Source of the DNA: a virus
Virus record (IMG/VR): IMGVR_UViG_3300005099_000039
Location: 1-21,199 of that record
Reading direction: 5' to 3' (one strand)
Length of the DNA stretch: 21,199 nt
Below, piece by piece: positions 10,745 to 11,667 of the stretch. The notes under the pieces were generated by a model. That model made no database searches, was not told the DNA's origin, and saw only the letters and a list, made by a program, of their open reading frames with translations. Both the position numbers and the translations under genes were made by a program. Each line of letters starts with the position of its first letter. Position 1 is the first letter of the stretch.

Positions 10745-10945
10745 TTATCGCCTTCTAACCCTTGCCGCCGCCTGCAATTGCTCTAGCTTCCTTGCCATCT
10801 CCTGTTCTCTGTCTGCCTTATTCCTCAATAACCTATACCGCCTTGAATAAGGCATGCTCATCAGATCATTATACGATAAACCTAACATCTCCATCCCAGC
10901 TAACAAATGGTTTTCCAAAACCTCTATATCTCCTGCGGGAAGAAA
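10745..10945 (-). CDS. Frameshift extension of the tail assembly chaperone (T-like part)
   Basis: This -1 frame is open from 10981 to the TAA at 10745, overlapping the end of the gp26-like frame. Read through the slippery site at 10951-10942 it adds 66 residues to the 240-odd-residue zero-frame part: FLPAGDIEVLENHLL, then GMEMLGLSYNDLMSMPYSRR and a strongly charged helix ending in VRRR. A short downstream frame with a MPYSRRYRLL-type motif, placed between a chaperone frame and the tape measure, matches the lambda G/GT and P2 E/E+E' arrangement, where the extension recruits the tape measure. Independent initiation is poorly supported: the first in-frame ATG (10894) lacks a well-spaced SD and would remove the first third. 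Without the shift, 10744-10923 would be a long unexplained gap in an otherwise packed block. Confidence 0.75.
   Translation of the reverse strand, partial: FLPAGDIEVLENHLLAGMEMLGLSYNDLMSMPYSRRYRLLRNKADREQEMARKLEQLQAAARVRRR
10909..10922. other. Small palindrome after the zero-frame stop of the chaperone
   Basis: GGTTTTCCAAAACC is a perfect 14-bp palindrome starting 1 nt after the zero-frame TAG (10926-10924). As RNA it could form a 5-bp stem with a 4-nt loop. It begins 19 nt after the slippery site, further than the usual 5-9 nt spacer of a frameshift-stimulating hairpin, so a stimulatory role is uncertain. Confidence 0.4.
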
Positions 10946-11667
10946 AAACCCCGCTGCGCTGGGTCCAATATGGATTGGAATTCATAGCCGCACTCTGGAC
11001 AAGTAACCTCCAATGTTGTATCCACGCCGCCCTCCATCTCCTCAAATTTGTTCCGCAAAAACATCCTATCTCTGTAAGACAATGACTTTACAATTTCCAA
11101 TCCTGTTGGCGATTTGTCTATAGGTGTTCCATTTAGCTGCTTCAACCTGCCCAAAATCGCAATGGATAACACATTATCAGCTTTGCTCAAACGGGCAAGC
11201 TGCCGCTCGGTTGCCCCTCGATAAACCTCCAATATTGCCTTTTTGCCCGACGGCAACTCAACCTCTACTTCATCTTGATATTCAGCAGGTCTTTTTATCT
11301 CCAAAGTGCTCAAATCCACTGTTGCCGTGAACTTCTTTTTGCACTGTGGACAGGTAAACTCCATCCTGAAAATGTCCCCAAGAGTCGCCCGCCGCAATAA
11401 AATCAAAAGATATACCCTATCTGAAACAACCATATTGTCAATGATCTGCGCAATTTGCTGCCTGTCGGTTATATCTCCTATGCTCACTACACATTGTTTG
11501 ATAATGCGGTCAAAGCGCTCCATTGGCGGCAAATTGTCATTCGCTAAAATGTCCTCTTCATACCCCGTCATCTCCCGCAAGGTAATGTCCTCAATGCGCC
11601 GCCCATCTACCACAACTCCATAAATCAACTTATAAGTGTCCTGACTGCTCTTTGGCATCTCAATCAT
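10924..11667 (-). CDS. Tail assembly chaperone / baseplate hub assembly protein, T4 gp26-like
   Basis: This 247-residue protein resembles the T4_baseplate (gp26) family: DGRRIEDITLREMTGYEEDI (21-40), ERFDRIIKQCVVSIG, SDRVYLLILLRRATLGDIFR, and a late SLSYRDRMFLRNKFEEMEGG. Two CxxC pairs, CPQC (Cys106/109) and CPEC (Cys223/226), probably form one zinc site. It lies where tail assembly chaperones lie, between tube genes and tape measure. Near its end the codons CGG GGT TTT TTC form a slippery site; most ribosomes should stop at the TAG (10924) and some continue into the extension. The start at 11667 follows AAGGAGGG with 6-nt spacing, just after the ribbon-helix-helix stop. The sequence around this start (CAATCATGAT on the plus strand) resembles half of the dispersed palindrome. 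The family role is in hub or tail assembly, and the protein is probably absent from the finished tail. Confidence 0.8.
   Translation of the reverse strand: MIEMPKSSQDTYKLIYGVVVDGRRIEDITLREMTGYEEDILANDNLPPMERFDRIIKQCVVSIGDITDRQQIAQIIDNMVVSDRVYLLILLRRATLGDIFRMEFTCPQCKKKFTATVDLSTLEIKRPAEYQDEVEVELPSGKKAILEVYRGATERQLARLSKADNVLSIAILGRLKQLNGTPIDKSPTGLEIVKSLSYRDRMFLRNKFEEMEGGVDTTLEVTCPECGYEFQSILDPAQRGFFFPQEI
10942..10951 (-). promoter_or_regulatory. Programmed -1 frameshift slippery sequence
   Basis: On the minus strand GGGTTTTTTC (10951-10942) contains two overlapping X XXY YYZ heptamers in the chaperone frame: G GGT TTT and T TTT TTC. Both tRNAs can re-pair after a one-base backward slip. Such a slip leads into the open -1 frame and avoids the TAG at 10924. 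This is the standard signal for tail assembly chaperone fusions. Confidence 0.78.

Follow-up and report, generated by a model that had tools for sequence, protein, structure and literature searches.

The window analysed here (21,199 nt; positions 1 to 21,199 of the 39,624-bp IMG/VR virus record IMGVR_UViG_3300005099_000039) contains a gp26-family gene that very probably specifies both forms of a tail assembly chaperone. Judged from sequence comparison, the gp26-family protein would be the short form (TAC-N) and a -1 frameshift product the long form (TAC-NC), in the manner of the lambda G/GT arrangement. This reading holds because the protein matches PF12322, the gene lies between the tail tube and tape measure genes, the -1 slip site is conserved and the -1 extension is selected. 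The same evidence bears out the original prediction, which had proposed a lambda G/GT arrangement on a CxxC-containing gp26-family protein.

Gene order and slip site

The record carries a contractile-tail cluster on the minus strand; the presence of a sheath gene indicates that the tail is contractile. The relevant features are as follows.

15220-13130, minus strand: tail sheath gene (phrog_23 tail sheath, E-value: 1.2e-73)
13070-12513 and 12509-11958, minus strand: two adjacent gp19-type tail tube genes (Pfam Phage_T4_gp19, E-values: 2.6e-21 and 1.4e-11)
11861-11670, minus strand: ribbon-helix-helix (Arc/CopG-like) gene, 63 aa, inside the tail operon between the tube and chaperone genes
11667-10924, minus strand: gp26-family (PF12322) gene, 247 aa, with two CxxC motifs; putative short chaperone form (TAC-N or 'G')
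10951-10945, minus strand: overlapping heptamer G_GGT_TTT in X_XXY_YYZ phase, also found in loci L009, L010, L016 and L028
10948-10942, minus strand: slippery heptamer T_TTT_TTC in X_XXY_YYZ phase; likely main -1 shift site
10942-10745, minus strand: -1 extension from translation, 65 aa plus stop, conserved and helical; putative TAC-C or 'T' part
10926-10924, minus strand: zero-frame stop TAG, end of the 247-aa form
10918-10916, minus strand: TTG, first possible start codon of the -1 frame, with AGGAG at 10931-10935, 12 nt upstream
10676-7599, minus strand: tape measure protein gene, 1025 aa, assigned from position and length, with a weak match to phrog_991 (tail length tape measure, E-value: 6e-4)

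The gp26-family gene thus sits between the tube genes and the tape measure gene, as expected of a G/GT-type chaperone. Further genes of the cluster, after the tape measure gene, encode a LysM/gp53-type protein, hub, spike, gp25 and a baseplate-J-type protein, the names hub, gp25 and baseplate-J being based partly on gene order and size. The protein encoded at 11667-10924 has the conserved domain PF12322 (T4_baseplate; E-value: 2.5e-15, residues 27-231 on profile positions 15-207 of 219), which is matched by 11/11 aligned members of the gp26 family, and also matches phrog_150 (E-value: 4.1e-19).

In the zero frame, the gene ends with CAG CGG GGT TTT TTC TTC CCG CAG GAG ATA TAG. Both of the overlapping in-phase heptamers that had been predicted before the TAG are present, and the distance from the heptamer to the TAG is 15 nt rather than the 16 nt first given. 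As predicted, translation shows no interruption of the -1 frame between 10981 and the stop at 10747-10745, which lies 68 nt before the tape measure ATG (10676). Following a slip on T_TTT_TTC, the extension is LPAGDIEVLENHLLAGMEMLGLSYNDLMSMPYSRRYRLLRNKADREQEMARKLEQLQAAARVRRR, with a length of 65 aa; the predicted 66 residues apply if the slip is on G_GGT_TTT. The latter heptamer is probably secondary, because it is absent from relatives other than the four loci listed above. TTTTTTC occurs as a single copy on the coding (minus) strand of the window, at this slip site, and among the 11 tail genes checked only the gp26-family gene has an in-phase heptamer within its terminal -1-open stretch. No stimulatory stem-loop was found downstream of the slip site beyond shuffled controls (z -0.27).

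The proposed mechanism is as follows. Most ribosomes would end at the TAG, producing the 247-aa TAC-N. A minority would slip by -1 on T_TTT_TTC, possibly aided by the overlapping G_GGT_TTT, and would produce a TAC-NC of ~307 aa, whose C-terminal domain is predicted to be small, basic and helical. If lambda is a guide, the tape measure protein would be coated by many copies of TAC-N and a few of TAC-NC, with tube subunits recruited by the C domain. The analysis demonstrates the slip site, its conservation and the selection on the -1 frame, whereas the frameshift efficiency, the ratio of the isoforms and the binding partners of each domain are inferred.

Conservation of the -1 frame and competing explanations

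A scan of viral contigs gave 16 loci (28-42% identity). Twelve of these, some of them near-identical contigs, combine an in-phase T_TTT_TTC with a -1 frame that is open; in L021 the heptamer is C_CCT_TTT instead, and L006, L007 and L017 have no slip heptamer. T_TTT_TTC with an open -1 frame is also found in the jumbo phages Atu_ph07, PA5oct, GAP32, CBB, Munch and 121Q, in Phosso, Vibrio 2.275.O and Serratia BF, and likewise in an uncultured 595-kb phage and one Acidobacteriota contig. Conservation of the heptamer in relatives, which the original prediction had named as a check, is seen in 20 of the 21 -1-class sequences (T_TTT_TTC, same phase, -1 frame open), L021 being the other; the classes were set by the frame that is open across the stop, and this fraction describes the -1 class rather than a blind sample. 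The core proteins of many of these sequences are only 24-42% identical. Given the encoded amino acids, the codon-usage probability of each NNT TTT TTC context is 0.015-0.19, with codon usage roughly estimated from the long open frames of each locus. The heptamer is kept also in genomes of 57-66% G+C, where TTT is a minority Phe codon. No plasmid relatives were found.

The run of six T in the window, which is extended to nine in L047 (the single genome-collection relative), could instead suggest slippage by RNA polymerase, such that some mRNAs of altered length would encode the fusion. For transcriptional slippage, six T would be a short run. Polymerase slippage would also be indifferent to codon phase, yet the heptamer is in X_XXY_YYZ phase in 20/20 cases, and L021 uses C_CCT_TTT without any T6 run. 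This explanation is most unlikely, with hardly any probability left to it.

The -1 extension also appears to be maintained as protein. Across twelve pairs of relatives, not all of which are independent, pN/pS is 0.14-0.56 for the -1 extension past the zero-frame stop and 0.12-0.48 for the core; for the other frames of the same extension DNA it is 0.86-3.1 (ungapped pairs only). These ratios indicate purifying selection on the extension as read in the -1 frame. Short open -1 stretches are common, and the arrangement could in principle be an accident, either a recent frameshift mutation or a chance open frame. Its recurrence in deeply diverged phages, the homology of the extension and the purifying selection on it leave this idea with virtually no probability, and it was rejected as refuted by the comparative data.

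The beginning of the conserved region bears on whether the second frame could be a small gene of its own, with translation starting at TTG 10918 (or ATG 10894) through coupling or reinitiation and no frameshift involved. The TTG lies 8 nt past the first base of the gp26 stop and has the AGGAG 12 nt upstream, but this spacing is too long for a good Shine-Dalgarno sequence, and in the window the -1 frame contains no start codon ahead of the slip. In the Rak2-like and Atu-like phages, conservation (FFRxxLL) starts at the slip, which in most of them precedes any start codon. The point from which their -1 frame is open coincides with the slip site or lies 3 nt ahead of it in L067-L072, and lies 9-36 nt upstream in L025 and L073; a start codon is found three to six codons into the extension in L025, L067, L068 and L072, and L073 has an ATG upstream of the slip. 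The PA5oct extension has no ATG, GTG or TTG at all. A separate gene would also leave the invariant phase of the heptamer unexplained. Relatives with a separately started second ORF and no slip site, which the original prediction had given as potential counter-evidence, do exist (L006, L007, L017, Cygsa01 and cyanophage Sf-FS3) and lend the separate-gene explanation some support. They do not refute frameshifting in the window because they belong to a different branch, from which the heptamer is absent altogether. Overall, translation from a separate start is very unlikely here. Conservation of the -1 frame beginning at the slip, the lack of any start codon in the PA5oct extension and the low pN/pS values in this frame favour ribosomal frameshifting over a separate start.

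In several of the jumbo phages (L067-L073), the annotation begins the extension at an internal start and lists it as a hypothetical protein in its own right (for example CBB gp249, GAP32_242, Munch_275 and 121Q_595; phrog_18291), and the conserved first residues are lost. In many jumbo phages the extension has been missed or labelled 'hypothetical protein'.

Other arrangements and known chaperones

The C-terminal domain is also found in other contexts. In GXN1, SP-15, BRock, LIS04, LR756508 and Mel-JY01 (loci L022, L023, L024, L026, L029 and L074), it is the +1 and not the -1 frame that continues past the gp26 stop and reaches the C domain. No exact +1 shift codon could be fixed in SP-15, LIS04 and GXN1, all three of which have CC CGA TTY before the stop; a -2 shift is a possible alternative. 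In L006, L007, L017, Cygsa01 and Sf-FS3, the C domain is encoded by a free-standing ORF. Those of L006, L007 and L017 lie ~4 nt after the gp26 stop and have an extra N-terminal part of ~45 residues. Two free-standing C-domain ORFs have the following positions.

L075, 3591-3764: free-standing C-domain ORF that has a start of its own and lacks a slip site
L076, 3199-3390: free-standing C-domain ORF that has a start of its own and lacks a slip site

In a search of a small target set, a profile of the -1 extensions (T1) matched the +1 extensions of Mel-JY01 (E-value: 2e-11), SP-15 (8e-8), LIS04 (3e-7) and LR756508 (2e-5) and the free-standing ORFs of L006, L007 and L017 (1e-10 to 3e-10). A tblastn search of phages with the extension alone gave no match.

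The connection of this domain to T4 gp51 is less firmly supported and came from a wider profile. Neither T1 nor a second profile (T2) separated T4 gp51 from shuffled decoys. A third profile (T3) contained the window, +1 and free-standing domains and no gp51; it was widened with cyanophage, Cygsa01, IC12, GXN1 and BRock domains chosen for their position directly downstream of gp26-type genes. This widened profile gave positive but modest matches to the C-terminal ends of the gp51 proteins, five of six scoring 8.9-16.0 bits and the sixth at 5.7, with at most 2 of 2065 decoys as high. Of these, T4 gp51 scored 9.1 bits (1/2065 decoys as high) and MD-2021a gp51 16.0; gp26, gp25 and gp28 scored below zero or had no match. 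The hhalign P value for the link between T3 and gp51 is 6e-5. In addition, phrog_634 matches T4 gp51 (residues 147-246; E-value: 1.2e-23), the free-standing Sf-FS3 domain (4.7e-25) and the IC12 ORF (2e-7). The extension is therefore likely, though not proven, to be homologous to the gp51 C-terminus.

It is possible, at somewhat short of an even chance, that one gp26-family C domain is expressed in at least four ways: by -1 frameshifting (the window and many jumbo phages), by +1 recoding, as a free-standing protein and as part of an in-frame paralogue (T4 gp51). A single family that uses -1 and +1 shifts, a free-standing ORF and a duplicated gene would constitute a natural experiment on the need for a short and a long chaperone. 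Free-standing cases, if genuine, would mean that the two chaperone domains need not be covalently fused.

T4 itself is said, by Vladimirov et al., to use gp26 as the short and gp51 as the long form, and the sequences compared here fit these as its two chaperone genes. T4 gp26 ends at the FF position where other members slip, and T4 gp51, also of PF12322, has a C-terminal domain in the same frame that probably corresponds to the extension. The two forms are thus separate genes in T4, whereas the window has one gene, directly before the tape measure gene. Tail assembly chaperone genes of T4-like phages have been identified (Vladimirov, Gautam & Davidson, Virology 2022, 566:9-15); papers that cite this work describe poly-T sequences as -1 signals in T4-like TAC-N genes (PMC12846349) and report that some T4-like phages have a short gene and a longer fusion gene (PMC10885494). 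The window shares with these T4-like chaperones both the PF12322 family and a poly-T -1 signal in the short gene (PMC12846349). Earlier, a 2010 review described gp26 and gp51 as T4 hub assembly chaperones, with gp51 required but absent from the particle and the evidence for gp26 in the hub conflicting (PMC3004832), and a 2016 review described G-T frameshifting as widely conserved 'except T4' (PMC5009743). The original prediction took the arrangement as support for a tail assembly chaperone role of gp26-type proteins; that reading is upheld, but the family-level idea is already published and the window is a new member. Likewise, the idea that gp26 and gp51 form a short-plus-long gene pair was dropped as a novelty, having a precedent in Vladimirov et al. 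(2022). The +1-frame arrangement of six phages and the free-standing downstream extension may be new variants. The window and its relatives extend the known gp26-type chaperones by one divergent virus of non-T4 type and by a wide range of shift sites.

Several other systems are similar in part. Like lambda gpG/gpGT, the proposed system pairs a short protein with a low-level -1 fusion immediately upstream of the tape measure gene. The lambda slip site is G_GGA_AAG rather than T_TTT_TTC, and the gp26 core of the window differs in having CxxC motifs; the likeness to lambda described here is one of arrangement. P2 gpE/E+E' and Mu gp41/42 also combine contractile tails with a chaperone frameshift before the tape measure gene. 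The corresponding domain, Phage_TAC_7 (PF10109; P2 E, Mu 41), matches the N-terminus of 3/11 gp26-family members (E-values: 0.0014-0.004), below the Pfam cut-off and over ~32 residues only. An AlphaFold2 model of the gp26-family protein (pLDDT 89.1) is most similar, among 350,542 PDB chains, to both chains of the HK97 tail assembly chaperone 2OB9 (Foldseek; probability 0.82-0.85), although the E-value of 0.37 is not significant alone, only 90 columns are aligned and the length of the gp26 protein is more than double. Bacillus subtilis YqbN (3KLU) ranked 10 in this comparison. In a viral structure library, the best matches to the gp26 model are gp26/gp51-type baseplate hub proteins. The extension is modelled as three helices (pLDDT 83.6). 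Finally, PMC12846349 describes, for the Vandenendeviridae/Andersonviridae (phage Adele), the TAC locus of a myovirus, in which a GTTTTT -1 site is conserved and the -1 frame stays open across an 'intergenic' stretch that has been annotated as a hypothetical gene. Adele belongs to a different tail lineage, and the likeness of its locus to the window is drawn from this description.

Further features of the tail cluster

The two gp19-type tube genes (13070-11958, minus strand) are adjacent paralogues that have diverged from each other. Right after the spike gene, a 119-aa protein (4852-4493, minus strand) consists of LPSLPS / SIPMPQFPPS repeat units and is possibly associated with the spike tip or needle.

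A 20-bp perfect palindrome, TTTGCAATCATGATTGCAAA, is present with 0-3 mismatches in 12 copies in the 39.6-kb record, 7 of them in the window, where none are expected.

1934, 4871, 7569, 10698, 11887, 13095 and 15904: copies in the window
22259, 29711, 30985, 37386 and 38579: copies in the rest of the record

No close relatives of the window virus were found; one other contig has the intergenic palindrome, but no tail genes, in common with it. Several copies lie ~19-48 nt upstream of minus-strand gene starts, and the set is perhaps an operator- or stoperator-like array. The ribbon-helix-helix gene (11861-11670) lies ~26 nt from one copy, and its product is a candidate binder of these palindromes.
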